Source: a virus. Taken from it: a stretch of 39,919 nucleotides of DNA. Shown here piece after piece: positions 15,701 through 38,658 of this stretch (the stretch's first letter is position 1; each line of letters opens with the position of its first letter). A program made the position numbers and the translations under genes. A model generated the notes under the pieces. The model made no database searches. It was not told the origin of the DNA and worked only from the letters and a program-made list of their open reading frames with translations. Location: positions 1 to 39,919 of IMG/VR virus record IMGVR_UViG_3300025646_003104, one strand, 5' to 3'.

Positions 15701-18700
15701 GCAACCAGATTTGTAGACCAATATCCAAATGCTGGGGCAGTATACATGTATGATTATCTAGCAAACTACAATGGTAGTATTGCTGATCCCGGTAAGTTTA
15801 TTTACGCACAATCATGTAACTCACTTGACAACAACTATGGCTTCCAGCCAATGTACGGAACTGCACTAGATTTTAGAAATAATCAAGTAGTGATCGGTAC
15901 ACCAGATTTGTCATTTGCTGATGTAGCGGGTCAGATTAATGTATACAGAAATCAGACAGGTGTAAAAGACTGGGCTGTATATAGAGAAAGTGCTCCGGTT
16001 GTTGACATCGAAAAGATTCAGAACTCACAGATATACAGCGCAGAAACTAATCAGACATTAATCAATTTAGATTACTTAGATCCTATGCAAAACAAAATGC
16101 TAGGGGTCATTAGACAAAATATAGATTATGTTGACAACATAGATCCTGCACGTTATAATGCAGACAGAAACAGAACAGTATCAGGTAAGGTATGGGGTAG
16201 CAGAAACGAAGGTAGACTATGGTTTGATACTTCTAATGTTCGCTGGTTAAACTATCATCAGAATGATGTAGTGTACAACAGTAAGTTCTGGGGTAGAGTA
16301 TTTCCAGGTTCTGACGTAGCGGTATATACTTGGGTAACAAGTAATGTACCTCCCGGTCAGTACGCAGGCCCTGGAACAGTTAGAAGCACTACACAGTTCT
16401 CAGTAGAAAGCACACTTAACGCATCTAACGTCTCAGTACCTCTGTACTCATTCTGGGTTCGTAATACTGATACTATCAATACAAAGATCGGTAAAACTAT
16501 TTCTGATATCAATTTACAAATCTATATCAGAAATCCAAGACAATCAGGTATCGCATACTTTGCGCCACTACTGCCAAACACTTTTGCTCTATATAACGCA
16601 GGTTCTTATATCAACGCAAATGATAGCGTGTTCCACGTAGGATTTGGTACAGGACAAAGTGATGATGTACCTCACCAAGAGTTTAGTCTGATCAGAACAG
16701 ATTATCCAGATGACTTCTTACCTGGATTACCTAAACTAGGTCCCCAAACACAAAACAACAGACCAGAAGGTTTGTATGATAGAATGCTAGACAGTCTTGC
16801 AGGTGTTGACGAAGCAGGTGCTGTAGTACCTAATCCGTTCTTACCAAAAGCAGTGCAGTCAGGCGTGTTAGCAAGACCAAGACAAAGTTTCTTCTTTGAT
16901 AGATTGACTGGTCTTAAAAATTTCTTACAGTACGCTAATGATATTTTAGCCCAGTTCCCGATTGCTGAAACAAGACGAGAAGCAACTTACTTGTTTGCAA
17001 CCGGGGAGTTCTACAATACTCCTGATTATTGGGAATATGTAAACTGGTGGTTGCCAACTAACAATCCTGAAAATCAGTATAACAATAACACTAAAGCATC
17101 GTTAAACGTCCCTGTTTACGCTGACTTAGCAAAACTTAATGTTGCTTTAAACACTCTAGTAAAAGTAACTGAAAACGGTGACGGTAAGTGGGAGATGTAT
17201 CGTTTTGATGGTGCAGGTGTTTGGACACGTGTTGGCCTAGAAAACGGTACTATTAAATTTAAGACTTATCTTTGGGATTATGCTGAAGGCAAGATTGGTT
17301 TCGGCGATAACTTCTTTGACACAAGTCCTTTCGATGAATATCCAAGTGAAGAAACACGATGGATCATAAGAGCATTGAACGAGCAGATTTACATCGATGA
17401 ATTAGTTGAGTATAGAAACAAGTCACTGATCATCCTGTTCCAATATATCGAAAGTGAGACAGACGAGTCACAAAATTACTTACCGTGGTTGAACAAGACT
17501 TCATTGATTGACGTGGCTCACACAATTAGAGAACTTTTACCAATCGAGAATTTCCAATCAGACAATCAAGATTTCTTAGAAGGTTATCTGAATGAAGTCA
17601 AGCCTTATCACGTGGTAATCAAAGATTTCTTATTCAAGTACACAGGTAGTGACGTTTATACGGGTGACGTTACAGACTTTGACTTGCCTGCACAATACAA
17701 CACTGCGATACAGCAATATGTAACACCTGAACTTGTGTATACAGGGGTGGACACTACCTCAGAATTCTCAGTAACAAGTCCAATTTGGTCTACACCTGAT
17801 TATAGTAATTGGTTTAATAACTACGGCGTAACTATCACTGGTCAAGATAATTATCAGATAACAACTTTAGCCAGCTACATTACGATCGGTTCTACGTTCT
17901 TGATAGTAGACAACGCTCAAGGTTTCCCAATCAATGGAACGATCACCATTGGTGACGAGCAAATCAGTTACGCATTTGTTGATCGTGCGCTCAACGTATT
18001 AGGTGGTTTGCAAAGAGGTATCAACGGTACTACTCCAGTAACACATATTCCTGGTGACGATATTTATATCGATCTACCTGCTGTATTACTATTAGACGGT
18101 GGTACAGGTTATACAGAGCCTCCGAAAGTAACAGCATATATCGATACTTTTATCTACCCAGAACCTAGAGTAGAAGCACAACTAGAAGCAGTAATGAGCG
18201 TAGACAGTGTTGTGTCAGTTAGAGTAATCGATCCAGGTGAAGGTTATGCAGTTCTTCCAGAGATCATTATCGATCCTGCACAACAAATCTTCTTTACTAA
18301 TGCAGAGATCAATTCTACATTACATACTATCAAACTGTTTGCTCCTAACTTAGCAACAGGTGATATAGTTAGATATCAATCAGATCCAACGGGAGCAACA
18401 ATCAATAGACTTGTTGACGGTAATTGGTATTACGTAAACGTATTAGAGACAGTACCTACATCTATCATCGCTCTATACCCAAGCTATAGAGATGCGGTTA
18501 GACAAGTAAACAGAATCGAATTCACTGCTGGTACTACAGATGGTAACTTTGTGCTAAATGTTGGTGCGAGAGCAACAGCAATTTCTAGCTCTTATCCCGT
18601 ACGTGAAAACAACACTACGATTAGATTTGACAGAACTACATTCAATTCACAAGTTACTGATTGGGAAGCAGGAGTGTTCTATGGTTCATTCTTTGCAGGA

Positions 18701-21700
18701 TCATATTTCAATAGCGAAAAGGTTGCATCATCTTCAATTGGATTAGAATCTACACAGCCCCCGATCGACAGTATTCTTGCTTCAGCACAAGGCGTAGTAT
18801 TTGAGATCAGTCAAGTAGAAAATGATCATCAAGTCACTTGGTCATCGTTTGTTCGTAGAGTTTCCGAAACAGTTGCGGCGAACGATGTTGTAAGATTGAA
18901 TCCTTACGATGAAAGCACTGGAGAATTAAACTCATCTGGTTCTACTATCGGTTTCTACGTAGGTATGCCAATCAAATTTACCGGTGCAGTGATTGGTGGC
19001 ATAGTAGCAGATCAAGTATATTACGTAGACAGTATTGTAAACATAACTGACTTTACTATTTCTGAGACAGCAGGTGGTAGCACGTTTGCGTTGTCAAATG
19101 CTACTGCAACATCAGCAGGAATGTCATGCTTAGTTGGTGAAGTAGTAGATACTGCGGTATTAACATTAAACTATCCAGGTATTATCACAGCGACCGCAAC
19201 TACAAAAGATATTAATACAGTAACTATTCCACAGTCTGTAATAGGTACAGGTGGTACAGATGGATTCTATATTGGTATTCCTCTGTTCTTTACAGGTGAT
19301 GTATTTGGCGGTATCATTGAAAATGATGTTTATTATGTAACTACTGTAGTAGATTCTGAGAATGTTACGATCTCTGCCGAGCCTGATCCATTAACAGCAA
19401 CAGTAAGTGCTACAACTTCAGGTACTAATATTGTTACAGTAGATGATACTACTGGATTTAGTGTCAATGATCCGATCATCTTTAACACTATGGTAGATGG
19501 ATCAAGTAACCCAATCAATAGTTATGGTGGAATCGATTCAGGTGCGTTGTATTATGTAAACGAAATCGTTTCGTTGACCGAACTAAAAATTTCTACTCAA
19601 GTAAACAATGTACCAGTTACACTAACAGATGTAACAACTGGTTCTGCACTATTAACTAACCAGAAAGATACATTAGATTTAACTAATGCTACCGGCACTA
19701 TGGCAATGAACGTGTCATTACCAGTATCACCAGGACAGATCAACGGACAGTTGTTCTCACTGTATGACACATCTGCATTCTATACTGACATCAATTCAGG
19801 TGTGTTGACTGATGCATTAGTTCGTACTGCTTATGCAACTATTGCAGGCGATGCTATCGAAGGTACTGATAACAGAATCGCATTGAGTATGCAAGACAAG
19901 GGCACTTACAACTTCTATGTAAATATGCCAGTAGTCTTTAACACAACACAAGGCGGTATCACTTCTGGTACAGTTTATTACGTAATAGAATTCTCTGATC
20001 CTGATGATCAATCAACGTTTATCGAAGTAGATTGCTCTGGCACATCTTCATCAACTAACCGAATTACTTGTTTAGATACTTCATCACTTTGGGTGAACAT
20101 GCCTATCATCTTCTCAGGTGTAGGCTTAGGTGGAATCGTAATCGGTACAGAATACTATATCAAAACTATAGATAGTGCAACTCAATTTACTATCACTGAT
20201 GTAGCAGGCGGAAGTGTTGTTTCATTAACAACCGACAACGGTCCGATGACTGGTACAGGTAACCCGTTCATCAAAGTTTCTACTACACCAGGTGGCTCTG
20301 CTGTAACGTTAACCGATACAAATACTGCAATGACTATGACTCAAACTCCTCAGACAACAGCAGAGTTTGACATTGGATTTATCTTAGGTGGATATAGAGC
20401 AGTCATTAGCAATGCTGGATCAGGTTATGCAGTAACTAACACTATTACTATTTCAGGAAATGAAGTAGGTGGCACATCACCTGCTAATGACGTTACATTG
20501 GTTGTCAATACTATCGACAGCAACGGTGCAATTACAAGTTTAATTATTGAAGGTGATCCAGAAGATACAGTATATCAATACTACTTCAAAGTTCGTACAC
20601 CGGACACCGTTGAAGTTTACAGTGATCCTAGAATGACAGTGCCAGTATCAGGCATCGACTTCCCATTCAACGGCTTCACAACAGCAAACGTAACAGATTG
20701 TACATCAGGAACTGATACTATCACATTAGATAGCGTTGCAGGCTTCAACGATAACGATGCTATCGTGTTCATGGGAACACTACCTAATAACTCTATCGAT
20801 GTAGAGATCGGTGAAACTTACTATATCATTGATATCGATACAATCACTAACGAGATTCAAGTATCAGATACGCCTAACGGCAGTGCAGTCAACGTAGTAA
20901 CTACACTTGCACTAACTAACTTGACTATAAGTAAAGCAGGTAGCTTTGCGTTCTTACCAGAACCCTTCTACTTTACACAGTCAATCGTCAAATACTTGAA
21001 TAGAGTTTATCGTTGTATCATTTCTAACAACGATACAGAATTCGTATTAGGTAAATGGGAAGAATTAGACTCAGGTGATCGTGTACTAAACGCATTAGAT
21101 AGAGTAGAGGGTTACTATCAACCAACTGCTAACATGCCTGGTTTCGACTTGACACAATTGTTTGAAGGTATCATCTATCCAAACTCAGTCTACTACGGTA
21201 ATGCGTTCGCACCAGAAGATCAGTTTACATTAGATACTGAGTTACAAGATCAGCCATTCTATCCAACAGGTGTTTCTATCACATCTATTCTTTGGAATGA
21301 TCAGTATTTCTTAAGCCCTGCTAACTTAGAAAATTACTCAGGTGTGATCAGAAGTGCTACAGGTCAATCTTGGAGCATCAATAAAGTTTCAAACGCACCT
21401 ATCAACGTAACAGACATCGTTGAAGGTAACGGCTTGTATGTGATGACATCAACAAACACTGCGACTCCAGTGTTTAGAAGCAACGATGGTGTTACTTGGA
21501 CTACTAACGGTTGGTTCACACCATATGATGCGCTGCCATACGACACAAATCCATATGACTCAACTGCACTTTCTATCGCAGCCATCTCGCTAAGAAGCGT
21601 AGATTATGGCAATGGATTCTTTGTAGCCGCAGGTCGTGGAATCGTACAAAGTTCAGACACTTATGTATGGACAGAAAGAAAAGCATATGATCCAGTATTT

Positions 21701-24700
21701 GACGTAACTCTATACGGTGTCAAATATTGCGTGACTTCGGGGTACACTGGTTTCGTAGCAGTAGGTAAAGGTAAGCGTTACGAATACTCATCAGGCGTAA
21801 CTGAGTTAGTAGATACTAACATTGTTGCGTACTCTTTTGATGACGAGGGTCAATTCTGGCAAGACGGCCCATCAGCTACCCCACTAGGTTTCTATGGTAT
21901 TGAGTCTGATGGCACTTACATGCTAGCAGTTGGTGAAGATGGTATCATCTATCAGTCAAACAACGGCGGTAACTGGGTAGGATTGCGTGAAGTTGGTTGT
22001 GTATCAGTTAACGAACCATTAGATATCTTAAACGTGATCTCAACTGAAGGTTTTGCATCAGGTGCTAGCGTATCAGTAACAGATTCATTTGCTGGTTTGA
22101 CAGCAGGTGACACTTATTATGTCGATGTCATCAGTTCAACACAGGTTAAACTGTACACTGATGCAGGATTGTCATCACTGGTAACACTAACTGCTGATAC
22201 GATTCCTTTACAAGCAAGATTGTATCATAAAGATCCTACATTACAACATACATTGTTAGATATCAAGTATGCTAACAGCATCTGGATGGCAGTGGGTGAA
22301 GATGGACAGATCCAAACTTCATCTGATAGAGTGAATTGGACGCAACAGACCTCAGGGACTGTGAAAACATTACGCGGTATCACGTTCAATCAAGATGAAT
22401 CGCTTTGGGTAGTTGTCGGAGACGACAATACTATCATTCAATCAGATGATGATGGTATTACTTGGACATCTTCATCCTTCTTTACTGTACAACAGCCAAT
22501 CTATGACGTACAAGGCGCTGAGTTCCCATACGGTTACGGTCCAGAAGAACTAGTTCCTGGTTTGATCAAAGACAACTTGACTATGACTGTAACAACACGT
22601 CCAGGAACTAACTGGGACGTTACACAATATTCACATACTGGATACAACGTAGCGTCTGTGGTACTGTATCCTCAAGAAGAATTCCAGACTGTATACAGTT
22701 TCGAAGAAATCTTACAGCATCCTGCGCAAATAAGTTTACAAGTTATCGATCCGGCAACTGAGTTGGGTACAGGTCTAGCAACTTCTGAATACACAGTAGA
22801 TTGGCCTAATAAGATAATCACGCTGGATAGTCCACTACAGTTCTCACCAATGCAAGCATTGAGAATCGATGTGTACGAAGTTGGTAACGGCAATCAATTA
22901 GTCAAAGCATGTAGCGATACTTACCCAATCAGAGAGATGGAAGAAACAGGGTTTGATGATATCTACTTGAACTGTAACTATAGTGCATCTATCTTCCAAG
23001 GTTCAGGTGTTATCAGAACAGGTTCACATTCTATCGAAGTAGAAGCGATTGCTACAGATGCTAACGGTGATACTATCACATTTGTAGACGTAAGTAACTT
23101 TGTTGCTAATGATCCAATCACATTCCAAGGTGTTGTGTTTGGTGGTATCGCAGACGAAACAACTTATTATGTGAAAACTATCTCTACAGCAACAAACTCT
23201 ATCACTGTATCTGAGACTTATAATACTTTAACAGGTCTAGCAGGTCCTACTAAAGCATTGACAACTGCAACAGGTTCAATGATTTGTAATATTCAAACAG
23301 GTACTGGCACTGTTTGGACAGATCCTGTTGTAAATCATAACGGTCAACGGTTAGTATTAGGTAAAACAAACACTATTAGCAGAACAAAAGCAAGTAACAA
23401 TGCTATTACAACTGGTACAACTGCTGGCTTGATTGTTGGAAGCAGAATAATCTTTGCCGCAAATATGTTTGGTAGCGATATTACTCCTAACCAATACTAC
23501 TATATCAATTCTATTGTAGATGGCAACGAGTTTACTATCTCTGAGACACTTGGTGGACCAACATTAACACTAAGTGACGCATCAGGTATCTCTAGTTATG
23601 TTACTAACGACTATGCTATCGGTATTCAGCCAAACGGTCAGCAAGCAAAACTTGTGTTAGCGGCGCCCGGCTCATACAACAATGAAGATGATTACTTTGT
23701 ATTCTCATTATTTGGTGAGACTGCTGGCACACAATATGGTTATACTTTACCTGAGATTGCAGAATTCACAGGTGACGGGTCAACATCATCATTCACACTA
23801 CCAAACTTCTGTGGTGATGACAACCCAACACATGCAATCGTAGAGATTGATGGCTTGCGTCAAACAATTTCTAGATATACAATAAACTCAGGATCGAATA
23901 CGATCTTGTTCAATTCACCACCTGCGAATGGAGCAAAGATTTCTGTATTAACTTATAACAACACAGAAAGACAATATTTTACATCGCAATATGGTATATC
24001 TGGTATCTCAGGTGGCGCATTCACCGCTATCACAGTAACAGATACAGTACACTCTGAAGTACCATATGATGCAGGTGATTACGATGCTACAAGTGCCGAG
24101 ACTCCTTATACTTCTGAAACAGTAGTAGCAGGATCATTCGTACCAGATGTAGTATATCAGATCAGCGATCTAGGAACAACTACAGATTGGAACGTGGTAG
24201 CAGGTACTTCAGGTATCACATATAATGTAGGTGACATATTTACAGCAGTTGATGCAGGATCCGGTGATGGTGAAGCAGATACCGTAATCAGCGCCCTTGA
24301 CGAATTATATGATTACTTAGTATGCACAGACACATCAACCCTAGTAGTTGATGAGCCTATCGTATTCTCATCACCTGCATTAGGTGGTTTGACTGGTGGG
24401 TTCACTTACTATGTACTTCAGATTATTAACTCAACAGTCTTTACAATCTCAACAACTCCTGGTGGTACTCCAGTAACGGTAACAGATGATACAGGTTCTA
24501 TGACAGGTACATCAAATGCTATTACTGTTGCACCGATTAGTAATATCTTGACAGAAATTAACAATCCACTAGCAGAGACTAGAGCAACTGCTACATCAAG
24601 CACTGGCAACGAAATTACTTTCAACAGCACAACTGGATTCATCGTAGATCAAACTGTAATCTTAAAAGGAACTGGATTCGGTAACTTAGTACCCGGAACT

Positions 24701-26937: not shown

Positions 26938-26945
26938 GATAAATA
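26938..26945 (+). promoter_or_regulatory. T4-type late promoter octamer before the fibre gene
   Basis: GATAAATA begins at the base after the preceding TAA stop. A start about six bases downstream leaves a leader containing GGAG at 26954-26957, ten bases before the ATG at 26968. This is the best-formed promoter plus ribosome-site pair in the window. Confidence 0.68.
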
Positions 26946-28206: not shown

Positions 28207-29160
28207 ATGAGTTATGCACAGTTTGGATTAATCGAAGCATCAGACTTCAATACATTAGTAGGTGGCAACCCCACGACTACTTCTAACACATTAAATGCTG
28301 TTTGGGCAGTAGGTGGCTCAACTGCCGGATATGGACAGACTGCTGTAGCAAACGTTTCAGCCGGGCAAACTGTAGCAAGTTCTGCTCAATGGAACTCGTT
28401 AGTTGCGAATACTGCATCAGCCGCATCACATCAAGGCTCAACTATCACTTCAGTTGCCGCCCCTGTTTCAGGCGGTACTATTACTTACTTGTCAGCTATT
28501 CCTTCTAACTTAACAACTATCTATTCAAACAGAAGAAACGCCGCAACACAAGGTTCAACATCTGCTAACACAGCAACCCGCGGCACTTCTTGGCAGACAG
28601 CATTAACATTTACTCATACAGTAACATTTGCATCAGGAGATGCCGCACGTTACTTCTTTAATGCTGGTGGACAGATTAAAATCACATGCTCACACCCCTC
28701 AGGTACGGGCATCAACTTGTTATGGTCTGATCTAGCGTCTAACGTTGGTACTGTTGTTATGAGTTCTCCAAGCTCAGGTACAGTATCTATTGCAGGCGGT
28801 ACTTATTCAGGTATCACTAAAGTTGGTGGCGGTGGTTCATCACCTACAATCGATGCTAACAAGGGTTATTTTGCATTAACCACAGCGAATGCGACAGCAT
28901 TTACACAGACAGCTTCTACAGGTCCTTCAGGCTACTTGAGTTCTTTCATCCGTTGTATTGTAAAGTCAAACGGTGCTCAAGGATCTAATGGCGATGCTGG
29001 TTCTATAATCACTATCTACACTATCTGGGACGAAGTTCCAGATGATCTAGTAGTGTCTTCAGGTACAGCAGTAACGTGTACAGTACAAAACCCAGAAACA
29101 ACTTATCTAAGTGCTTCTTGGGGTACACCTACTATTGCTGGCTCAGTATCCGGTTCATAA
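28207..29160 (+). CDS. Gly/Ser/Thr-rich tail structural protein
   Basis: The product has 317 residues. AGGAA at 28193-28197 lies nine bases before the ATG. The opening MSYAQFGLIEASDFNTLVG and the QWNSLVAN segment are followed by a region with NRRNAATQGS and ARYFFNAGGQIKITCS, a motif seen in other aquatic phage virion proteins. The rest is beta-rich with frequent Gly and Ser, and there is no transmembrane segment. It is probably a fibre or adhesin component working with the preceding gene. It is the last structural gene before the hairpin that opens the modification operon. Confidence 0.65.
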   Translation: MSYAQFGLIEASDFNTLVGGNPTTTSNTLNAVWAVGGSTAGYGQTAVANVSAGQTVASSAQWNSLVANTASAASHQGSTITSVAAPVSGGTITYLSAIPSNLTTIYSNRRNAATQGSTSANTATRGTSWQTALTFTHTVTFASGDAARYFFNAGGQIKITCSHPSGTGINLLWSDLASNVGTVVMSSPSSGTVSIAGGTYSGITKVGGGGSSPTIDANKGYFALTTANATAFTQTASTGPSGYLSSFIRCIVKSNGAQGSNGDAGSIITIYTIWDEVPDDLVVSSGTAVTCTVQNPETTYLSASWGTPTIAGSVSGS

Positions 29161-29173
29161 AATATTTTTCAAC

Positions 29174-29221
29174 GCCTCAATATCTCTCTAAATACTCATG
29201 GGAGTAATGAGATATAGAGGC
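29174..29221 (+). promoter_or_regulatory. RBS-occluding hairpin with embedded late promoter at the head of the modification operon
   Basis: GCCTCAATATCTC at 29174-29186 pairs with GAGATATAGAGGC at 29209-29221, with a single A-A mismatch. Inside it, TACTC at 29193-29197 pairs with GAGTA at 29202-29206 around an ATGG loop. The outer right arm contains the AGAGG ribosome site (29216-29220) and ends two bases before the ATG at 29224. The late-promoter octamer at 29187-29194 lies between the outer and inner stems. Read-through RNA would hide the ribosome site; RNA started near 29200 would lack the left arm. There is no trailing T-run, so it does not look like a standard terminator. Confidence 0.75.
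29187..29194 (+). promoter_or_regulatory. T4-type late promoter octamer for the modification operon
   Basis: TCTAAATA differs from the T4 consensus TATAAATA at one position. A start about six bases downstream gives a leader of about 24 bases with AGAGG near the ATG. It is the only promoter-like octamer seen in front of the ten-gene operon. Confidence 0.62.
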
Positions 29222-29223
29222 TT

Positions 29224-29529
29224 ATGGATACTAAAAAATTAATTTCAGACGCTAAAGCAAGATTTAGTCATAATTCTGCGAAAGCATACCTTAAAGAAAA
29301 ATACAGTGCTAAACTATTAGTCGCTGAACAAGGCGGCTTATGGCGCGCCTGCCCAGAAACAATTGCACATCTAGCATCTTTCCAATCCGAAAAACTAGTC
29401 CTCATCGATACGTTTGACAATCCGGTCAAAGTTGACAGAAAAGAATTACTCTCTTTACTTACGACTACATACGAAAATGTCATGAACGAATGGTATGAAG
29501 AATGGAAAGAACTAGAAAACAAACGTTAA
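29224..29529 (+). CDS. Small hypothetical protein, first gene of the modification operon
   Basis: The product has 101 residues and is mostly helical and charged. It begins with an amphipathic N-terminus (ISDAKARFSHNSAKAYLKEK), has a central AEQGGLWRACPETIAHLASF and ends in NEWYEEWKELENKR. It resembles small proteins of unknown function in other T4-like phages, and no catalytic motif is visible. AGAGG lies three bases before the ATG and is buried in the hairpin. The next gene starts within its last 28 bases, so translation of the two is probably coupled. Confidence 0.75.
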   Translation: MDTKKLISDAKARFSHNSAKAYLKEKYSAKLLVAEQGGLWRACPETIAHLASFQSEKLVLIDTFDNPVKVDRKELLSLLTTTYENVMNEWYEEWKELENKR

Positions 29530-30377
29530 AATCTAGAGGTCTTCTAATATTTGCATTTAACACTGAAAAGTGGGATTATGTAGCCATGGCTGCATACACT
29601 GCTAAACGTGCAAAGCAATTTTTAGGACTACCTACTACTCTTATCACTAACGAAGAATCTAAACCTGAAGGTGATCTTGCGAAGACCTTTGATCAGATCG
29701 TTGTGGTGAAAGCAGATAAAAATAATATCAGAGACCATATGATTTGGATCAACAAAGGCAGATATCAAGCCTATGAACTAAGTCCATATGATGAGACTCT
29801 ATTATTAGACGCGGATTATGTCATCAACTCTGATAAGTTGTTGACTACTTTTGATCTGTCTGACACGTTCTGTTGTCATAACAAGACCGATTTCTTGATG
29901 TATCCAAATGCTCCCCAAGAAACGTTAAGTTCATATAGTTATGACACGCTATGGGCAACTGTAGTGATGTTTAAAAAATCAGAACGTGCTAGACAGATTT
30001 TTGAAACACTAAAAATGGTTCAAGAAAATTACTCTCACTATGCAAATATTCATAGTTTTATTGGTGGGGTATTTAGAAATGATTATGCACTTACTATTGC
30101 GCTACGAATAGTTAACGGACACTCAATAGAACCCAGTGATTATATTCCCTGGAACTTAGTTCACGTAGGCAAGAATACTTCAGTATACGCAAAATATCCG
30201 GATCAACCGATACCGTTCAGCGATGGCGATCCAGCATTCAATACAGAATTTATTGTTATGTTTGATAACTGGCAAAAGGGCAAGATCAGAAAAGAATACT
30301 TAGAGATTTATGATCTAGATTTTCACGTAATGAACAAAGAACTATTTGTTGACATTATGGAGAACAAACATGGATAA
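29502..30377 (+). CDS. Putative GT-A-type glycosyltransferase 1
   Basis: The product has 291 residues. GLLIFAFNTEKWDYVAMAAY at residues 13-32 is an opening beta strand and helix of a nucleotide-sugar-binding fold. ETLLLDADYVINSDKLL follows, with Asp103-Ala-Asp105 placed as the metal-binding DxD of GT-A (GT8-like) transferases. Later segments WATVVMFKKSERARQIFE and FRNDYALTIALRI also fit this family. The donor and acceptor are unknown. The ATG overlaps the preceding gene by 28 bases; no later in-frame ATG precedes the conserved strand, which supports this start. Its stop overlaps the next start. Confidence 0.68.
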   Translation: MERTRKQTLKSRGLLIFAFNTEKWDYVAMAAYTAKRAKQFLGLPTTLITNEESKPEGDLAKTFDQIVVVKADKNNIRDHMIWINKGRYQAYELSPYDETLLLDADYVINSDKLLTTFDLSDTFCCHNKTDFLMYPNAPQETLSSYSYDTLWATVVMFKKSERARQIFETLKMVQENYSHYANIHSFIGGVFRNDYALTIALRIVNGHSIEPSDYIPWNLVHVGKNTSVYAKYPDQPIPFSDGDPAFNTEFIVMFDNWQKGKIRKEYLEIYDLDFHVMNKELFVDIMENKHG

Positions 30378-31152
30378 AGGATTTGTTATTCTAGCACAAA
30401 ACAGCAGTGTCAATTATATTCGTTGCGCTGAATTGTTAGCAGAAAGCATCGTGCGTGTTATGCCTGATGCTAGAGTATCATTAATTTCTAATAATAAAAC
30501 TAATTCAACAGTATGGGACAAAGTAATCAAATTGCCATACGGCGACTTAGGTGGGTTTTTTAATGATTGGCAAGTATACGAAGCATCGCCATATGAATAC
30601 ACCATTAAACTTGAAGCAGATATGTATGTTCCCCGATCAATTGATTATTGGTGGGAAATTCTAAAAAGTAAAGATGTTGTAGTTTCTACTACGATCAGAA
30701 ATTTTAAGCAAGATATTTCACATATCAAAACTTATAGAAGATTTGTCGTTGACAATGAATTGCCTGATACGTATAATGCTATCACATATTTTAAAAAATC
30801 GGAGACAGCAAAAGAGTTTTTTGATACAGTAAGATTTATTTTTGAAAACTGGGAAGAAATTAAACCAGAGTTCAAGTGCAACCCGGATGAGCCTGCTACA
30901 ACAGATTTCGTGTACGCTATCGCATCGCACGTTGTTGGAGTAGAGAAAACTACTCTCCCTAACTTCACGCAGATGTCCATGATTCACATGAAGCAGTTTA
31001 TCAATACTATGCCTACTGAAGATTGGACATCTACGCTTGTCTACGAGATTTTGCCACACACTATTAGAATAAACACAATCCCCCAGATATATCCTTTTCA
31101 CTATCATGTTAAAGAATTTTCTGATAGAATAGCAGAGGTATTTTATGAGTGA
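30370..31152 (+). CDS. Putative GT-A-type glycosyltransferase 2
   Basis: The product has 260 residues from the chosen ATG at 30370. GGAG at 30359-30362 lies seven bases upstream. An in-frame ATG at 30346 would add eight residues without a good ribosome site. DKGFVILAQNSSVNYIRCAE is the opening strand and helix, and EYTIKLEADMYVPRSIDYWW contains Glu82-Ala-Asp84 at the DxD position. TYNAITYFKKSETAKEFFD and ATTDFVYAIA parallel the previous protein, so the two are probably distant paralogues. The first aspartate of DxD is replaced by Glu. It overlaps the neighbours on both sides by eight bases. Confidence 0.62.
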   Translation: MDKGFVILAQNSSVNYIRCAELLAESIVRVMPDARVSLISNNKTNSTVWDKVIKLPYGDLGGFFNDWQVYEASPYEYTIKLEADMYVPRSIDYWWEILKSKDVVVSTTIRNFKQDISHIKTYRRFVVDNELPDTYNAITYFKKSETAKEFFDTVRFIFENWEEIKPEFKCNPDEPATTDFVYAIASHVVGVEKTTLPNFTQMSMIHMKQFINTMPTEDWTSTLVYEILPHTIRINTIPQIYPFHYHVKEFSDRIAEVFYE

Positions 31153-31492
31153 TGATCTAGAAGAATACATCTTAATCTGGGAAGCCCCCAAGATCGAAGC
31201 ACCCGAATTCAGATTGTATTACAAAGAAGACGGGAGTGTAGATTTCTATACTTGCGAGAAACCCGAAGGAAATTATATCGTCATAGACCAACAGACATAT
31301 GCTGAAGGTAGACAAGACGTAAAGGTTGTTAATGGCAGGGTCTCTAGAATCAGACCTCATACTACAATCGAAAAACTAGTAAAGTCAGACAGAGGACAAA
31401 AAACTGCATTACATGATGTCAGTGTAGTCATCACCTCAGACTCGACAGAGAAAGAATTTGCATATTGGGAATTAAAAACATATGAGTACTGA
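31145..31492 (+). CDS. Small hypothetical protein between glycosyltransferase-like genes
   Basis: The product has 115 residues. It begins with an acidic stretch (SDDLEEYILIWEAPKIEA). A beta-rich core follows with FRLYYKEDGSVDFYTCEKP and GNYIVIDQQTYAEGRQD, and it ends in FAYWELKTYEY. No enzyme motif is visible, and small phage proteins with this layout are usually unannotated. It overlaps the previous gene by eight bases (ATGAGTGA) and the next by eleven, so it belongs to the same translational unit and may be an accessory subunit. Confidence 0.7.
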   Translation: MSDDLEEYILIWEAPKIEAPEFRLYYKEDGSVDFYTCEKPEGNYIVIDQQTYAEGRQDVKVVNGRVSRIRPHTTIEKLVKSDRGQKTALHDVSVVITSDSTEKEFAYWELKTYEY

Positions 31493-32429
31493 TATTATCG
31501 ATGTAGCTGATTTAGATTGTATCTATCTTAGTTACGATGAGCCACAAAAAGAAGAATTTTGGTTAAAGATTAAAAACATGGTACCTTGGGCTAAAAGAGT
31601 CGATGGTGTACTAGGTTCCGATGCGGCTCACAAAGCCGCAGGTGAGGCCAGTGACACGGAAAGATTTATTCTTATCGATGGTGACAATATGCCTGACGAA
31701 GAATTTTTTAATATACAACTAGATTTTACTGATAAAGATCCTAGGTATCATCAAGCACAATTTAGATGGAAAGCGATCAACAACATTAATGGATTGCGTT
31801 ATGGTAATGGTGGCATGAGTTCATGGACTAAATCATATGTAGAGAAAATGAATACTCACGAACATACTGATGGTAGCGCACACACTCAAGTAGACTTCTG
31901 CATGGATAGCAGTGATAGTTTATATTGGGCTATGTATGATTGTTACTCAACAACTTATCCTAACTACACACCTTTCCAAGCATGGCGTGCAGGTTTTCGT
32001 GAAGGAGTGAAGATGGTTCTTGACAGAGGCGCAAGAACTACAGTAGAACAATTCAAGCAACGTGTTGCAACAAGAAACTTAGATAACTTGACTATCTGGC
32101 AAAACGTTGGTGATGATGTAGAGAATGGCATCTGGGCTATCTATGGCGCAAGACTTGGTACATATATGACTATGTTAAGCGATTGGGATCACGTTAATGT
32201 TATGTGGTTTGAGAACTATCCCAAGATGTGGGAAGAGCATAAAGATAAAGATCCATATGCAGAAGCCGAAACAATCGGACAAGCATTACACGCAAAACTA
32301 GGTTTACCTATGTGTATAATGTCTCCTGAGCAAAGTGCATTCTTTAAACGTCACTATAAGGCAGACAGAGCAAACAAAGGACCTCTAGTCACTGAGATGG
32401 AAGTAATTAGAGAAATTGAGGGCTGGTAA
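31482..32429 (+). CDS. Putative phage glycosyltransferase 3 (DGDN type)
   Basis: The product has 315 residues. The N-terminus has DCIYLSYDEPQKEEFWLKI, VPWAKRVDGVLGSDAAHKAA and ERFILIDGDNMPDEEF, with the DGD at residues 66-68 placed like the metal-binding DxD of GT-A enzymes. This set of motifs is typical of a protein often labelled glycosyltransferase in aquatic T4-like phages. Further marks are NGLRYGNGGMSSWTKSYVEK and TPFQAWRAGFREGVKM. The acceptor is unknown. It overlaps the previous gene by eleven bases, and its TAA shares a base with the ATG of the first radical SAM gene, which ties the sugar and radical SAM parts together. Confidence 0.65.
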   Translation: MSTDIIDVADLDCIYLSYDEPQKEEFWLKIKNMVPWAKRVDGVLGSDAAHKAAGEASDTERFILIDGDNMPDEEFFNIQLDFTDKDPRYHQAQFRWKAINNINGLRYGNGGMSSWTKSYVEKMNTHEHTDGSAHTQVDFCMDSSDSLYWAMYDCYSTTYPNYTPFQAWRAGFREGVKMVLDRGARTTVEQFKQRVATRNLDNLTIWQNVGDDVENGIWAIYGARLGTYMTMLSDWDHVNVMWFENYPKMWEEHKDKDPYAEAETIGQALHAKLGLPMCIMSPEQSAFFKRHYKADRANKGPLVTEMEVIREIEGW

Positions 32430-33832
32430 TGTCTAAAGAAACAGACAGAATTAAAACTATACAAATACGAGTAGAAAACGAAGCATCGCCTACGTTCTGT
32501 CTGGCTAAGTGGCATCACGTTACTATGTATTTGCAGACAGGCGAGACGCACAGTTGCTATCACCCTAGACCTCATAAGATTCCGTTGCATGAATTAAAAG
32601 AAAACCCAAGTGCTTTACACAACACTTGGGAAAAGAAAATGGAACGTAAGCAGATGCTTGAGGGTGAGAAACCTGAAGGCTGTCAATACTGCTGGAACGT
32701 AGAAGCATTGGGTCCTGATTATATCTCAGACAGACATATCAGAAACGGGTCTATCTTTACTGAAGAAAGATTTGAACAGTGCGCTAAAGGCAGTTACGAA
32801 CAAAACATCAATCCAGAATACATTGAAATCAACTTTGGTAACGAGTGTAACTTTAAATGTGGTTACTGTCACCCTAAATATTCTTCAAGTTATCACAGTG
32901 AGATCAAACAGTTTGGTCCTGTAGAAAGTGTGAAGAATCATAGATGTGATATTGACTGGATGAAACTGTTTGAACGTGAAGAAGAAAATCCTTACGTAGA
33001 TGCGTTCTGGGAATGGTGGCCTGAGATGCGTAAGACCTTAAACATCTTGCGGGTGACAGGTGGTGAACCTACTATGCACGTTTCTACTTGGAGACTACTA
33101 AAACAGATCGATGAAGATCCTATGCCGTGGTTAGAACTAAACATGAATTCTAATCTAGGAACAAAAACGGCCCTCATCGAACGTCTAGCAGACTCAGTGA
33201 AGAAACTGTGTGATGAAAAGAAACTAGAAAGTTTCAAACTATTTACCAGCTTAGATTGCTGGGGCGAACGTGCAGAATATATTAGGACGGGTCTAGACTT
33301 AGCGTTATGGGAAAAGAATTTTCATACATATCTAACTAGAACTGATTCTCCCGTCACGTTCATGGTAACATTCAATATCTTAGCAGTAACATCATTCAAG
33401 CAATTATTAGAAAAGTTCTTAGAATGGCGTAAGATGTATGGGTGGTATGAATGGAAATCTGAAGACAAACATAGAGTGCGTTTCGATACCCCATACTTGA
33501 AAGAGCCTTTACAATATGATATGAATATCTTACCAAAAGAAGAATTCATGCCTTATATGCATGAGTCGCTACAGTTTATCAAAGATAACGTAGATGACAC
33601 AAGACCTGATGCGTTTACAACTATTGAATATGAAAAGTTCAAACGAGTTGTTGACTATATGGCTGAGACACATTATAGTGAAGAAAAACTGATTGAAGGA
33701 AGACGAGATTTCTACAACTGGTTCAACGAACTTGATGATCGTAGAGAAACTGATTTACTGTCTATCTATCCTGAATATCTAGATTTCTATAGATTGTGTC
33801 AACAAGCCAACTTAACGAACCCAATGAGATAA
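32429..33832 (+). CDS. Radical SAM protein 1 with N-terminal twitch-like domain
   Basis: The product has 467 residues. The radical SAM motif CNFKCGYC is at Cys140, Cys144 and Cys147, binding the [4Fe-4S] cluster that cleaves S-adenosylmethionine. GGEP follows at 211-214. Ahead of it is a twitch/SPASM-like domain with Cys24, Cys43, Cys85 and Cys88 (PTFCLAKWHH, HSCYHP, GCQYCWN), probably holding an auxiliary cluster. A GERAEYIRTG motif near 280 is shared with the next two proteins. It is the most diverged of the four twitch-bearing copies, lacking their PCC motif. The first start position (TAATG) suggests translational coupling. The substrate is unknown. Confidence 0.85.
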   Translation: MSKETDRIKTIQIRVENEASPTFCLAKWHHVTMYLQTGETHSCYHPRPHKIPLHELKENPSALHNTWEKKMERKQMLEGEKPEGCQYCWNVEALGPDYISDRHIRNGSIFTEERFEQCAKGSYEQNINPEYIEINFGNECNFKCGYCHPKYSSSYHSEIKQFGPVESVKNHRCDIDWMKLFEREEENPYVDAFWEWWPEMRKTLNILRVTGGEPTMHVSTWRLLKQIDEDPMPWLELNMNSNLGTKTALIERLADSVKKLCDEKKLESFKLFTSLDCWGERAEYIRTGLDLALWEKNFHTYLTRTDSPVTFMVTFNILAVTSFKQLLEKFLEWRKMYGWYEWKSEDKHRVRFDTPYLKEPLQYDMNILPKEEFMPYMHESLQFIKDNVDDTRPDAFTTIEYEKFKRVVDYMAETHYSEEKLIEGRRDFYNWFNELDDRRETDLLSIYPEYLDFYRLCQQANLTNPMR

Positions 33833-33835
33833 AAG

Positions 33836-35128
33836 ATGAAGGGACCGGCAGCTACATTTTTAAAGAAATTACTTTTAGAAGAAAGCGAAACTTTCTGCAT
33901 GATTCCGTGGGTGTCTATTCATACAACACCTACTGGTCAAGCCGCACCGTGTTGTATTTCTAAATCCTGTTCAGATAATATCGGTATAGGAAATTCAAAC
34001 GTGAACACCTTAGATGAACTAGTAAACTCACCTAAGATGAAGCAGTTACGTTTAGATATGATCAAGGGTACTAAGAATCCTGAGTGTGCTAACTGTCATA
34101 AACACGATGCTCAGGGTGTACCTAGTTTTAGAACGCAATCTAATACAGTATGGGCAAAAGACTTGATTCAAGTAGTAGAAAACACTGACTTAAAGACAGG
34201 AAAGATCAGTAATTTTAAAATGAAATATTTTGATGTCAGATTTTCAAACATATGTAACTTCAAATGTCGTACATGCGGATCAGCGTTTTCTACTCAATGG
34301 GAACAAGAAGATTTAAAGAGCCAAGAATTGACCGGTTTACCAATGTATGCTGTGCAATTAGAAAAAGGCAACAGAAAAGAATTTGTACAAGAAGTGTTAG
34401 AACATATTCCAAATATGGAAGTTGCATATTTTGCAGGCGGCGAACCCCTGATCACTGATGAAATGTACCTGATGCTAGAAGAAATGATCAGAGTAGGTAA
34501 GACAGATATTGAGCTAAGATATAATACTAATATCTCTAATCTCAAATATAAAAAGAAAGATATCTTCAAACTATGGGAACACTTTTCTAAACCTATTCAA
34601 GTTTTTGCGTCAGTAGATCATTTTGGACCCAGAGCAGAATATATAAGACACGGCACAGATTGGAAGCAAGTAGAAGAAAATATTAAAAGGCTACGCAAAG
34701 CTCCTAATGTAAGATTCCAAGTTAACTCAGTTCTGAGTGTATTCAATGCTTTGACTATTTCTCATTTCTACAAGTACATGATCGATAATCATTACTATGT
34801 TCCTAGCAGTCCCGTATGGACTCTTTATAACATGGGCAGTCCTGAGCATGTATCAGTACACGTATTACCCCCTGATTACAAAGAACAAGTTGTACAGCAA
34901 TTAGAACTTACTATCAAGTATATGGAAGATTTGGGCTTCTCTGATAGCCATACCCAGCAGATCAAAAACTGTATTCCTTGGGTGTTGTCTAAAGATACGT
35001 GGGACGAACAGAAAAAAGACTTCAAAGAAGAAATTCATAGACTTGATGCACTCAGGGAAGAAGATTTCACAGTAACTTTCCCTGAACTAGCAAATTTATA
35101 TAAACCACCTACTAATTTGAGACCATAA
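33836..35128 (+). CDS. Radical SAM protein 2 with N-terminal twitch/SPASM-like domain
   Basis: The product has 430 residues. The N-terminal domain has FCMIPWVSIHTTPTGQAAPC with Cys21, Cys39 and Cys40, and ECANCHKH with Cys84 and Cys87. In normal SPASM enzymes this type of segment lies after the radical SAM core. The core has RFSNICNFKCRTCG with Cys140, Cys144 and Cys147, then AYFAGGEPLIT with GGEP at 201-204. YNTNISNLKYKKKDIF and GPRAEYIRHGTDW follow. Similar N-terminal-twitch radical SAM proteins are known as a family in phages and bacteria; the reaction is not established here. The ribosome site before its ATG is weak, and only three bases separate it from the previous stop. Confidence 0.85.
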   Translation: MKGPAATFLKKLLLEESETFCMIPWVSIHTTPTGQAAPCCISKSCSDNIGIGNSNVNTLDELVNSPKMKQLRLDMIKGTKNPECANCHKHDAQGVPSFRTQSNTVWAKDLIQVVENTDLKTGKISNFKMKYFDVRFSNICNFKCRTCGSAFSTQWEQEDLKSQELTGLPMYAVQLEKGNRKEFVQEVLEHIPNMEVAYFAGGEPLITDEMYLMLEEMIRVGKTDIELRYNTNISNLKYKKKDIFKLWEHFSKPIQVFASVDHFGPRAEYIRHGTDWKQVEENIKRLRKAPNVRFQVNSVLSVFNALTISHFYKYMIDNHYYVPSSPVWTLYNMGSPEHVSVHVLPPDYKEQVVQQLELTIKYMEDLGFSDSHTQQIKNCIPWVLSKDTWDEQKKDFKEEIHRLDALREEDFTVTFPELANLYKPPTNLRP

Positions 35129-36369
35129 TGTCACGTATACCTATCGACAAAGAATTTCTATTAAACGAAAGCAAAACTTTCTGTATGTTTCCGTGGCTGC
35201 ACTTGAACGTGACTCCTAAAGGTGATATCTATCCTTGCTGTTCAAATGACTATACACAGCCTTTTGGTAACACAAAAGAGATTACTTTAGAAGAAGCATT
35301 CAACAGTGACAAGATGAAGAAACTGCGCCTAGATATGCTTAACGAACGCAAGAACGATATCTGTACTTTTTGTTATAAGCATGAAGAAGCAGGTCCTCAC
35401 AGTTTTAGGAACTATTCTAAAGAGCAGTTTGCACACCACTTTGATGATCTTGTTCCCTTGACACAAGAAGATGGACATGTACATGACTTTAGAATGCACT
35501 ACTTTGATATTAGATTCTCAAATATCTGCAACTTTAAATGCAGAACTTGCGGTGCAGAGTTTAGTTCTCAGTGGGCGCAAGAGATGCGTGAACACTTTGA
35601 CCCAACACACAAGATCATTATTCACGCAGATGACGGTAAGGGTACAGTACTAGAAGAAGTTATCGGACAGATTGACAACATCGAACTGTGTTACTTTGCA
35701 GGTGGCGAGCCACTTATCACTGAAGAACACTATGTGATGTTAGAAGAATTTATCAGACGCGGCAAAAAGCCCGTATTACGTTACAATACTAACGCAAGTA
35801 ATATAAAATATAAAAAGCATGACATCTTAGAGTTGTGGAAGCATTTTGACAAGATCGAACTAAGTTGTTCTATCGATCATTTCGGGGAACGTGCTGAGTG
35901 GTTGCGTAAAGGTACAGATTGGGGTAAGGTAGAAAGCAACTTGCTTACCTTCAGAGATTTAGATTATGTGTCATTCCAGATGAACACTGTATTCTCACTG
36001 TTTAACTATCCAATGATCGGCGAGTTCTATCAGTATCTAAAAGACAAGAATATTGTTAGAGCAGAAGATTGGTATCATAGTCTGTATCTTGCGGTACATC
36101 CAAATTATTATAGTGCGAAAAGTTTACCAAAAGAACTAAAGATCGAAGCCGCAGAAAAAGCAATGCGCTGGGCCGATGCAAACAGAGATGACAAAACAAG
36201 TTTGTCTAGATTAGTAACTGATGCAGTAAACTTTGCGGCAGAAAGTGATACTTGGAAAGATGTTAAAGATACTATGCTTATGCATACAAGATCAATAGAC
36301 AGAATAAGAGACGAAGATTTCTGGAAGGTGTTTCCTGAATTAAATAAGTTGCGTGACTTAAACGAATAG
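35128..36369 (+). CDS. Radical SAM protein 3 with N-terminal twitch/SPASM-like domain
   Basis: The product has 413 residues. The N-terminal cysteines are Cys19, Cys37, Cys38, Cys79 and Cys82 (TFCMFPWLHLNVTP, YPCC, CTFCYKHEEAG). The radical SAM motif ICNFKCRTCG uses Cys134, Cys138 and Cys141, and GGEP is at 192-195. YNTNASNIKYKKHDILELW and GERAEWLRKGTDW match the previous protein closely, so the pair arose by duplication. The TAA of the preceding gene overlaps this ATG by one base. All catalytic residues that can be checked are present. Confidence 0.86.
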   Translation: MSRIPIDKEFLLNESKTFCMFPWLHLNVTPKGDIYPCCSNDYTQPFGNTKEITLEEAFNSDKMKKLRLDMLNERKNDICTFCYKHEEAGPHSFRNYSKEQFAHHFDDLVPLTQEDGHVHDFRMHYFDIRFSNICNFKCRTCGAEFSSQWAQEMREHFDPTHKIIIHADDGKGTVLEEVIGQIDNIELCYFAGGEPLITEEHYVMLEEFIRRGKKPVLRYNTNASNIKYKKHDILELWKHFDKIELSCSIDHFGERAEWLRKGTDWGKVESNLLTFRDLDYVSFQMNTVFSLFNYPMIGEFYQYLKDKNIVRAEDWYHSLYLAVHPNYYSAKSLPKELKIEAAEKAMRWADANRDDKTSLSRLVTDAVNFAAESDTWKDVKDTMLMHTRSIDRIRDEDFWKVFPELNKLRDLNE

Positions 36370-36379
36370 GTGAAAATAA

Positions 36380-37660
36380 ATGGATAAATTAGTAGTAAAA
36401 AATCTAGTTGAGAACGGTAAGCACTTCTGTGTATTACCCTGGGTTCACTTTCATGCTTGGCCCGACAAGCGTGTATTACCTTGTTGCGTAGCAGATTCTA
36501 ATATGCCAATGGGCGAGATCAGAGAAGACGAATCTATCATCCAGATGATGAACTCTGACGAGTATAAAAAGTTGCGTACAGCGATGATGAAAGATGAGCC
36601 TGTCGCCGCATGTAAGCGTTGCTATGACTTAGAACTCATGGGCGAGTGGACTATGCGTCAGTCACATAACAAACGTAAAGGCTTAGAATACGTAGACTAC
36701 ATTGCAGATACTACTAATGATGACGGATCGTTAAAAGAGTTTGAGATGAAGTATATGGATATTAGATTCTCTAATATCTGTAACATGAAGTGTAGATCAT
36801 GCGGACCTTCATGTTCATCTCTTTGGTCACAAGAGTTTTTAGATCAGCGAGGCAAAGAAGTATTCAATGAATACTTCCCGCAGAATAATGGTAAGATCGT
36901 TATCAGTAACAACGATGATCAGCGTTTCTTGACTAAACTAAAACCTTATTTAAGTGACGTAACTGAAGTATATTTTGCAGGTGGTGAAATCATTATTACC
37001 CCTGAACATTATGAATGCTTAGACTATTGGGTCGATAACGGCTTGACTGAGCAAGTAGAGTTAACCTATACTACAAACTTCTCAACATTAAACTACAAAA
37101 AGAATGTTGACTTGATTGGGTATTGGAAAAAGTTCCCCCAGCTAAAAATCTGGGCAAGTTTAGATGCACATGAAGAAGTGGCAGAGTGTATCAGAGCAGG
37201 CACAGATTGGGAGAAAATCGTCAGGAATATCAGAGAAGTTAGAGAGCAAGTGCCACATGCTCAGTTTCAAATTACTCCCACGATATCCATTTGGAACATC
37301 TTTGATTTTCCTGACTTCTGGGATTACATGGTTGAAAACGATTTTATCGATGTTAAAAACTCGGCACCTCGTTTCAACTTAGCAACTAACCCTTGGTATG
37401 CAAACGTTATGATCTTGCCACAGCATGTTAAGCGCAGGCTAGCAGAACTATATCGTGTGTATCAAGAACGTCATAAAGATAACGTACATATCTATAATGG
37501 CTTTAAGATGATCATCTACAACTTAACAGTAGGCGATGAAAACAAAGGTGGTATTTTAGAATTCAAGCAATTCAATGATGAACTAGATCAGTTTAGAGAC
37601 GAAAAGTTTGAAGACATCGTACCCGAAATTAAGGAAGTATACGAGTGGGCCGCGAGTTAA
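36380..37660 (+). CDS. Radical SAM protein 4 with N-terminal twitch/SPASM-like domain and altered GGE motif
   Basis: The product has 426 residues. The N-terminal cysteines are Cys17, Cys35, Cys36, Cys78 and Cys81 (FCVLPWVHFHAWP, LPCC, CKRCYDLELMG). The core motif ICNMKCRSCGPSC has Cys134, Cys138 and Cys141 plus an extra Cys145. The usual GGEP is GGEI at 201-204 (VYFAGGEIIITPEH). The RAExxRxGTDW motif is altered to EEVAECIRAGTDW. AGGTGA close to the previous stop serves as a weak ribosome site. It is clearly a paralogue of proteins 2 and 3 with several changed positions around the active site, suggesting a different substrate. Confidence 0.84.
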   Translation: MDKLVVKNLVENGKHFCVLPWVHFHAWPDKRVLPCCVADSNMPMGEIREDESIIQMMNSDEYKKLRTAMMKDEPVAACKRCYDLELMGEWTMRQSHNKRKGLEYVDYIADTTNDDGSLKEFEMKYMDIRFSNICNMKCRSCGPSCSSLWSQEFLDQRGKEVFNEYFPQNNGKIVISNNDDQRFLTKLKPYLSDVTEVYFAGGEIIITPEHYECLDYWVDNGLTEQVELTYTTNFSTLNYKKNVDLIGYWKKFPQLKIWASLDAHEEVAECIRAGTDWEKIVRNIREVREQVPHAQFQITPTISIWNIFDFPDFWDYMVENDFIDVKNSAPRFNLATNPWYANVMILPQHVKRRLAELYRVYQERHKDNVHIYNGFKMIIYNLTVGDENKGGILEFKQFNDELDQFRDEKFEDIVPEIKEVYEWAAS

Positions 37661-38658
37661 GAGAAGTATTTGCACCAGAACCCTACTTGGCAATAACATG
37701 GCAAGTAAACAATTTTTGCAATTTTAAATGCTCTTATTGTAATCCGGGTAACTGGGCGGGCGAAAACCCCAACAATGGTAATTTAGATATCTACTTAAAG
37801 AATCTATCTACTATTGTTAGTCGCTATCAAAAAGCAGGATACAAACACTTTAAGTTTTTCTTTTCTGGTGGTGAACCCACTGCATGGAGAAACTTTATTC
37901 CTATCTGTGAGTATCTACACAGTGAGTTACCTAATGCTACTTTAGCAGTGAATACTAACTTGTCAAGACCTCTAGCGTGGTGGGAAAAACACGCATACTT
38001 GTTCGATGATGTAGTTGCCAGCTTTCACGTAGAGTTTGCTAACAAAGAACGCTACGAAGAAAATTCTATCTTTCTATGTGAGAACGTAAACTATCTTTCT
38101 ACAAAGATGTTGATGCACGAAGAACGATTCTGGGAAGTAGTAGAGTTTGCTGAACATCTCAAAACAGTGATGCCTAACTACTTTATTGAGTGGACTCCTT
38201 TGTATGATGAACTTAGTCATGTTACAGGGCCATGGCAATACAAAGATCCTGAGAAAGTAAAGTTCATCGAAGAACATAACTTAGAAATCAAGCAAACAAA
38301 AGACAAGCCCGCAAAACGCACAGAGTTCACGGTATCGTATAATAAATACTCAGATGGAAGTGAGCAAGTATGTAATGCTAACGACATTATCGTAAACTCA
38401 CAGAACTTTTTTAAAGGATGGAAGTGTAATGTAGGTGACTGTATCTTTATCAATCCTGTAGGCACGATGAGTTTAGCAAGTTGTGGCATGGGAGGGGTTG
38501 TAGGACACATCTTAGAAGATATCAAAAATGTAGGTCCCAAACAAATCACTTGTTATAAAGACATGTGTATGTGCGGCACAGACATCATTATTCCGAAATT
38601 TTGGACAGGGGAAAAAATAACAAATGAACGAAAAATTCCGATCAGTCATCTCGCATAG
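37645..38658 (+). CDS. Radical SAM protein 5, C-terminal auxiliary cysteines, GTG start
   Basis: The product has 337 residues. The start is GTG at 37645, supported by AAGGA at 37631-37635 nine bases upstream; it overlaps the previous gene by 16 bases. The radical SAM motif CNFKCSYCNPG is near the N-terminus at Cys25, Cys29 and Cys32, and FFSGGEPTAWRNF places GGEP at 75-78. There is no N-terminal twitch domain. The C-terminus instead carries Cys261, Cys266, Cys280, Cys303, Cys308 and Cys310 (GWKCNVGDC, ASCGMGG, ITCYKDMCMC), a SPASM/twitch-like auxiliary cluster region. It is from a different subfamily than the four preceding copies. The substrate is unknown. Confidence 0.83.
   Translation: MGRELREVFAPEPYLAITWQVNNFCNFKCSYCNPGNWAGENPNNGNLDIYLKNLSTIVSRYQKAGYKHFKFFFSGGEPTAWRNFIPICEYLHSELPNATLAVNTNLSRPLAWWEKHAYLFDDVVASFHVEFANKERYEENSIFLCENVNYLSTKMLMHEERFWEVVEFAEHLKTVMPNYFIEWTPLYDELSHVTGPWQYKDPEKVKFIEEHNLEIKQTKDKPAKRTEFTVSYNKYSDGSEQVCNANDIIVNSQNFFKGWKCNVGDCIFINPVGTMSLASCGMGGVVGHILEDIKNVGPKQITCYKDMCMCGTDIIIPKFWTGEKITNERKIPISHLA

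Follow-up and report, generated by a model that had tools for sequence, protein, structure and literature searches.

Two groups of described leaders come closest to the locus reported here. In the leader of T4 gene e, a late promoter lies between the left arm of a hairpin and the ribosome site and AUG; the long RNA hides the start, and the late RNA is made without the left arm (described in passages of PMC3014915). In the portions of the T4 literature that deal with e, and also with soc, 49 and I-TevI, the promoter comes after the left arm and before the start region, as is the case here. The second group comprises the leaders of I-TevI, I-TevII, I-TevIII, segB and mobE, where, according to the relevant passages of PMC2988022, readthrough RNA has its ribosome site hidden by a hairpin, and a late promoter lies beside or within this hairpin. 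These homing endonuclease leaders belong to mobile genes situated mostly inside early or middle operons, whereas the gene considered here is fixed and stands in a conserved order with tail genes (121/121 loci). Gene e had served as the model for the original prediction, and when its leader was submitted to the same exposure computation as our locus, values of 0.03 for the long RNA, 0.72 for RNA from the nearer promoter and 0.41 for RNA from the farther promoter were obtained. These figures agree with the case as set out in that part of PMC3014915, and gene e proved an apt model.

The locus lies in a stretch of viral DNA of 39,919 nucleotides (the window, taken over its full length), which is part of the genome of an uncultured T4-like phage. 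A 1120-aa baseplate protein encoded in the window showed 32–42% identity, among the 15 matches listed, to proteins of Phosso, Atu_ph07, Vibrio 2.275.O and Munch; the genomes of the phages matched by this protein are about 340–490 kb, and relatives of the hairpin locus sit in records of up to 525 kb. The large ORFs upstream of the locus are on the same strand, several of them match tail or baseplate families, and the late-type octamer GATAAATA is found at 2837, 3333, 26155 and 26938. A single ORF of 6472 codons fills positions 6734–26152, between baseplate and tail genes. The gene that follows the hairpin codes for a conserved 101-aa protein, whose predicted structure (pLDDT 92.7) gave one strong structural match, to an uncharacterised phage protein (E 1.4e-9), a loose likeness to DUF4376-type phage proteins (E 0.008–0.03, TM about 0.5–0.6) and no match among solved structures. 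Its position hints at a possible role near the tail fibres. We consider it highly probable that the leader of this gene is a cis-acting translation gate, the features of which are collected in Table 1.

Table 1 Features of the putative translation gate and its surroundings in the window
Feature	Position	Strand	Basis or remark
Late-type octamer GATAAATA ahead of the tail genes, from which readthrough likely starts	26938..26945	+	
Upstream gene, after tail-fibre-like gene 26968	28207..29160	+	Orthologue in 121/121 loci
T-tract with constant spacing to the octamer that follows it	29165..29169	+	Near -35 relative to the predicted +1
Left arm of outer stem	29174..29186	+	Fold and inverted repeat; missing from RNA starting at 29200
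Late-promoter-like octamer TCTAAATA	29187..29194	+	nnTAAATA octamer here in 90/90 distinct loci
Inner stem-loop TACTC/GAGTA	29193..29206	+	Fold (29193-29197 with 29202-29206); paired in 94.6% of cells in relatives
Predicted transcript start (+1)	29200	+	From T4 spacing
Right arm of outer stem, containing the ribosome site	29209..29221	+	Fold and inverted repeat
Shine-Dalgarno-like AGAGG	29216..29220	+	Sequence; within right arm, 3 nt before ATG 29224
Putatively gated gene, conserved 101-aa protein	29224..29529	+	Fold loosely DUF4376-like
Downstream ORFs, tightly packed or overlapping	29502..38658	+	Radical SAM: 32429, 33836, 35128, 36380, 37645

The original prediction held that a late promoter is nested inside a hairpin whose 13-base arms, with one mismatch, pair the AGAGG ribosome site away. 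The arms were confirmed as described, with 12 of 13 positions paired (92%) and 22 nt between them. On folding, the 51-nt stretch gave -20.6 kcal/mol (z -4.89), and 0/200 shuffles were equally stable; no Rfam family matched over the hairpin, the single weak match elsewhere being at chance level. The octamer was also said to lie between the outer and inner stems, and it does directly follow the 3' end of the left arm, but it shares two bases with the inner stem. In T4 the octamer of a late promoter is numbered -13 to -6 (in the passage of PMC1524935 that gives the numbering), so that the +1 is predicted at 29200 and the left arm would be excluded from the transcript. When the region was folded with and without the bases before 29200, as had been proposed, predicted exposure of the Shine-Dalgarno (SD) sequence rose from 0.20 in the long RNA to 0.81 in the short RNA, in line with the claim of a hidden ribosome site. 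This predicted change is robust to temperature and length: RNA starts from 29198 to 29203 gave 0.59–0.82 at 37 °C, as against 0.20 for starts from 28974 to 29174, and short RNA gave 0.55–0.74 at 15 and 25 °C. With a start at 29187 the SD sequence was still hidden (0.04–0.35, predicted), and the start must therefore be beyond the octamer. Predicted exposure of the AUG is nearly flat in the window (0.47 long, 0.53 short), and the spacing between it and the SD sequence is short.

An inverted repeat of this size is not remarkable in 40 kb, since the window holds two and eight shuffles held 0 to 3; TCTAAATA by itself is not enriched in the window either (2 observed, 3.05 expected). As the size of the repeat alone was within chance, we examined relatives. 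The 101-aa protein was used to scan IMG/VR, the best 80 of 177 and the best 80 of 164 relatives being taken from two of the scans; this provided 121 related loci with a common gene order and, including the window, 90 distinct leaders. All 90 carry an nnTAAATA octamer upstream of the start. It reads TCTAAATA in 68 of the 76 relatives counted, whereas the other late promoters mostly read GATAAATA, and TCTAAATA might perhaps be no ordinary late promoter. In most relatives the first T of TCTAAATA pairs with the A of AUG. A gp55-like sigma factor was found in 13/14 records. Because of the position of the octamer and these gp55 relatives, we regard it as a putative T4-type late promoter, placed such that its RNA would lack the left arm, as befits a gate of the gene e type. 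What exceeds chance is the placement of hairpin and octamer together, and the conservation of this placement in relatives.

In most relatives the partner of the left arm is the start codon together with codons 2–5; the sequence that ends on the first octamer base is GTATCCAT, the complement of ATGGATAC (start codon and next codons). The left arm follows the coding side where the latter differs, so that the two arms change together: GTATTCAT is matched to coding side ATGAATAC in the L027 group, GTGTCTAT to ATGGACAC in L058, L067, L072 and L086, and CTTCGGTATCCAT to ATGGATACCGAAG in L062. Across the 90 leaders, own arms paired at -11.9 kcal/mol and swapped arms at -9.15 kcal/mol, with 0/200 swaps as good; for 31 representatives the values were -10.42 and -7.77 kcal/mol, again with 0/200. 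Compensating base changes in related phages had been named beforehand as a check, and the covariation score was 0.188 as compared with 0.128 after shuffling (0/500 shuffles; 24-sequence alignment). In the same 24 sequences, changes on both sides were found at 7 of 12 outer pairs and slid registers scored 0.046–0.087. This alignment comprises 24 of the 31 representatives, the window, L034, L018, L026, L033, L060 and L002 having been dropped beforehand because their arms are elsewhere, short or absent; loci found from a DNA pattern (L123-L170) were also kept out. RNAalifold alone returned 7 pairs and -1.37 kcal/mol. The structure is kept by compensating changes, a second mark of the gene e type of gate.

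The same leaders bear on whether the start is hidden. Over the 90, the median predicted probability of the AUG being unpaired was 0.03 in readthrough RNA and 0.56 in octamer-started RNA, the long form lowering predicted exposure of the AUG in 83/90 and of the SD sequence in 76/87. In the remaining 7/90 AUG exposure was not lower in the long form; one of these exceptions, L060, has no comparable stem. As in gene e, the hairpin of the readthrough RNA is therefore predicted to hide the SD sequence, the AUG or both.

The window is one of a subgroup of loci whose spacer is longer; its right arm precedes the start codon, as do those of L034 and L018. L034, which is the nearest relative of the window among the matches listed (74% identical protein), pairs AGTCTCTCT with AGAGAGACT, and L018 pairs TATATAATC with GATTATATA, each as distinct from the 13-base arms of the window. 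The arms of the window and of L034 are unrelated in sequence, and both sets are placed before the start codon. Own arms in this subgroup (8 distinct loci) paired at -11.6 on average and swapped arms at -8.7, with 1/5000 swaps as good; L002 and L014, of the same subgroup, pair weakly (-6.1 and -6.8). To judge from these sequences, pairing has been retained in the subgroup while the arms themselves were replaced.

A search of the whole of IMG/VR with the consensus TATCCATCTAAATACTCNTAGGAG returned 48 stretches, 47 of them directly before the 101-aa gene and the 48th running off the stored DNA. As a control we took 71 GATAAATA promoters that serve other genes of these loci, most of these genes being orthologues of a single tail gene; predicted exposures were 0.50 long and 0.55 short. 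The 22 'other' TCTAAATA rows proved to be the same gene with an in-frame ATG further upstream in 12 cases, a stop-codon overlap (TCTAAATAAGGA) in 9 and another site (L068) in 1, and for this reason only the 71 GATAAATA rows were used as the control. Among 33 leadered promoters from seven records, own arms paired no better than swapped arms. The idea that the conserved element is a promoter motif and nothing else was rejected, given that the extended consensus is specific to the 101-aa gene and that other late promoters in the same loci are without the hairpin. In the phages collection, no named phage record showed DNA or protein likeness to the leader or to the 101-aa gene. Among GTDB genomes a single contig, L299, binned as Rhodobacteraceae, has TATAAATA and a six-base ATCCAT/ATGGAT pairing; a gp25 search of the GTDB genome of L299 gave no match. 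This is a weak hint at a Rhodobacteraceae host, and the binning may be wrong.

We propose that the leader of the 101-aa gene would be transcribed in two ways, by readthrough from the upstream tail genes or from the nested late promoter. Readthrough RNA would keep the left arm and fold; in the window this would hide the ribosome site, and in most relatives the start codon. RNA from the nested promoter would have its 5' end near 29200, on the ribosome site or immediately ahead of it, and, being made without the left arm, would be translated. The overlapping downstream ORFs may follow via translational coupling, which is plausible since the next ORF overlaps the 101-aa gene in 113/121 loci. The sequence, the predicted fold and exposure change, the covariation and the conserved promoter are established here, and from them we infer the actual start, the repression of translation, which upstream transcripts exist and the coupling.

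The original prediction went further, in that ten genes of sugar and radical SAM enzymes would be restricted to late expression. As regards their number, the first start codon would be hidden directly, and the rest would be gated by way of the coupling just described. The radical SAM enzymes were confirmed as five consecutive genes (32429-38658), four of which match the twitch-domain radical SAM family NF033640 above its curated cut-off. The sugar enzymes found no support, the four ORFs from 29502 to 32429 having no match to Pfam, NCBIfam or a function-named PHROG; the gene at 29502 has an orthologue in 121/121 loci. The restriction to late expression was not upheld either: the upstream tail genes have late-type octamers of their own, so the readthrough to be silenced is itself probably late, and the hairpin probably serves to shield the gene against late readthrough instead of delaying it. 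A delay, with early or middle readthrough kept silent and late transcripts translated as for T4 gene e, would draw on an architecture identical in kind to that of gene e; we nevertheless find it doubtful, as the upstream same-strand ORFs match tail or baseplate families, the GATAAATA octamers listed above lie among them and no early promoter was identified.

A protein that binds the dyad around the promoter as a DNA-level operator, and so represses the promoter, is a much less probable explanation. The dyad does flank the promoter and the wobble counts are compatible with such an operator: G-U wobbles (43/357) and A-C mismatches (29/363) differed with a Fisher p of 0.08, or 0.49 for the representatives, and since this preference is not significant the base counts alone are no proof of RNA over DNA. 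A sequence-specific protein needs a conserved site, however, and the arms of the main group, of L034, of L018 and of the window have quite different sequences that nonetheless still pair; moreover, the right arm follows the start codon or the SD sequence.

Marginally less credible still is a terminator, or a protector of the 3' end of the upstream tail mRNA, for which the intergenic position and the conserved T-tract upstream might speak. The T-tract lies about 18–25 bases before the octamer in nearly all loci, position -22 relative to the octamer being T in 99% of the 90 distinct loci, and is not seen at the GATAAATA promoters (T in 10% of 71). It is, however, 5' of the hairpin, and no consistent terminator hairpin precedes it (mean z -0.5 in 29 loci); a GC-rich stem followed by a T-run was not found, no T-run follows the hairpin, no terminator-like site was detected and the arms track the start of the next gene. 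A terminator was rejected on these grounds. A chance hairpin beside a chance octamer, conceivable from the frequency of such repeats in 40 kb and the lack of octamer enrichment, has been refuted by the conserved octamer and covarying arms of the relatives and is the least probable reading of all.

With the translation gate as the preferred reading, a further feature of the clade concerns where late transcripts would start. In many genes 5 nt separate the octamer from the start codon, which places the AUG at the predicted +1 of the late promoter. Our survey of this spacing covered the window, relatives L219-L298 (the best 80 of 260) and records G001-G011. The pattern ATAAATA-N5-ATG occurs 135 times in nine records, where the reversed pattern was counted 25 times and an N8 spacing 21 times; in Atu_ph07, Vibrio 2.275.O, Munch, S-PM2 and T4 it occurs 5, 0, 1, 2 and 2 times, respectively. 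In parts of seven records and the window, the gap from the octamer to the first ATG has a peak at 5 (19 genes, with 10 at gap 4 and 6 at gap 6) and, separately, a broad one at about 15–25. The gp25 leaders of 40 distinct relatives have either a gap of 4–5 (29) or a gap of 15–18 (11, an SD-like site being present in 10), and gp25 of the window (gene 2849; octamer region 2837-2851) has a gap of 4 and no ribosome site between. In L061 and L065 (both 3001) the 101-aa gene itself has its AUG on the predicted +1, with the promoter enclosed by a stem of about 15 pairs. As a class, leaderless starts showed no hairpins (own -4.03, swapped -3.90), and single cases pair well.

The spacing with AUG at +1 would imply leaderless late mRNAs in this clade. 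Within the passages of the literature covered, leaderless late mRNA was nowhere reported for T4-like phages: the relevant part of the AR9 paper remarks only that phage transcripts are often leaderless (PMC5312081), and the passages covered of PMC9004378 do not concern leaderless mRNA. On balance, if only just, we favour a clade-wide rule that would join late promoter to translation start, with the transcript beginning either on the AUG (leaderless) or exactly on the SD sequence, a hairpin silencing the longer RNA. Readthrough would then be untranslatable by design, and gp55-type late transcription would set which starts are live.

Comparison supports well the placement of this putative element with the T4 promoter-in-hairpin translation gates, as these are presented in the passages concerned of PMC3014915 and PMC2988022. 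The sequences are TATAAATACTTAGGAGG in T4 e and TCTAAATACTCnTAGGAGT in the family described here. In contrast to T4 e, the gene is an unrelated one in distant, uncultured phages of large genome, the upstream genes look late rather than early, the arms have diversified in place and two relatives appear leaderless. The device of T4 gene e would here be found at another gene, kept by selection in a large and widespread phage group, and the natural variants of the leader are enough to read the rules of the element. If true, the AUG-at-+1 spacing would make leaderless mRNAs a genome-wide strategy of a T4-like group.
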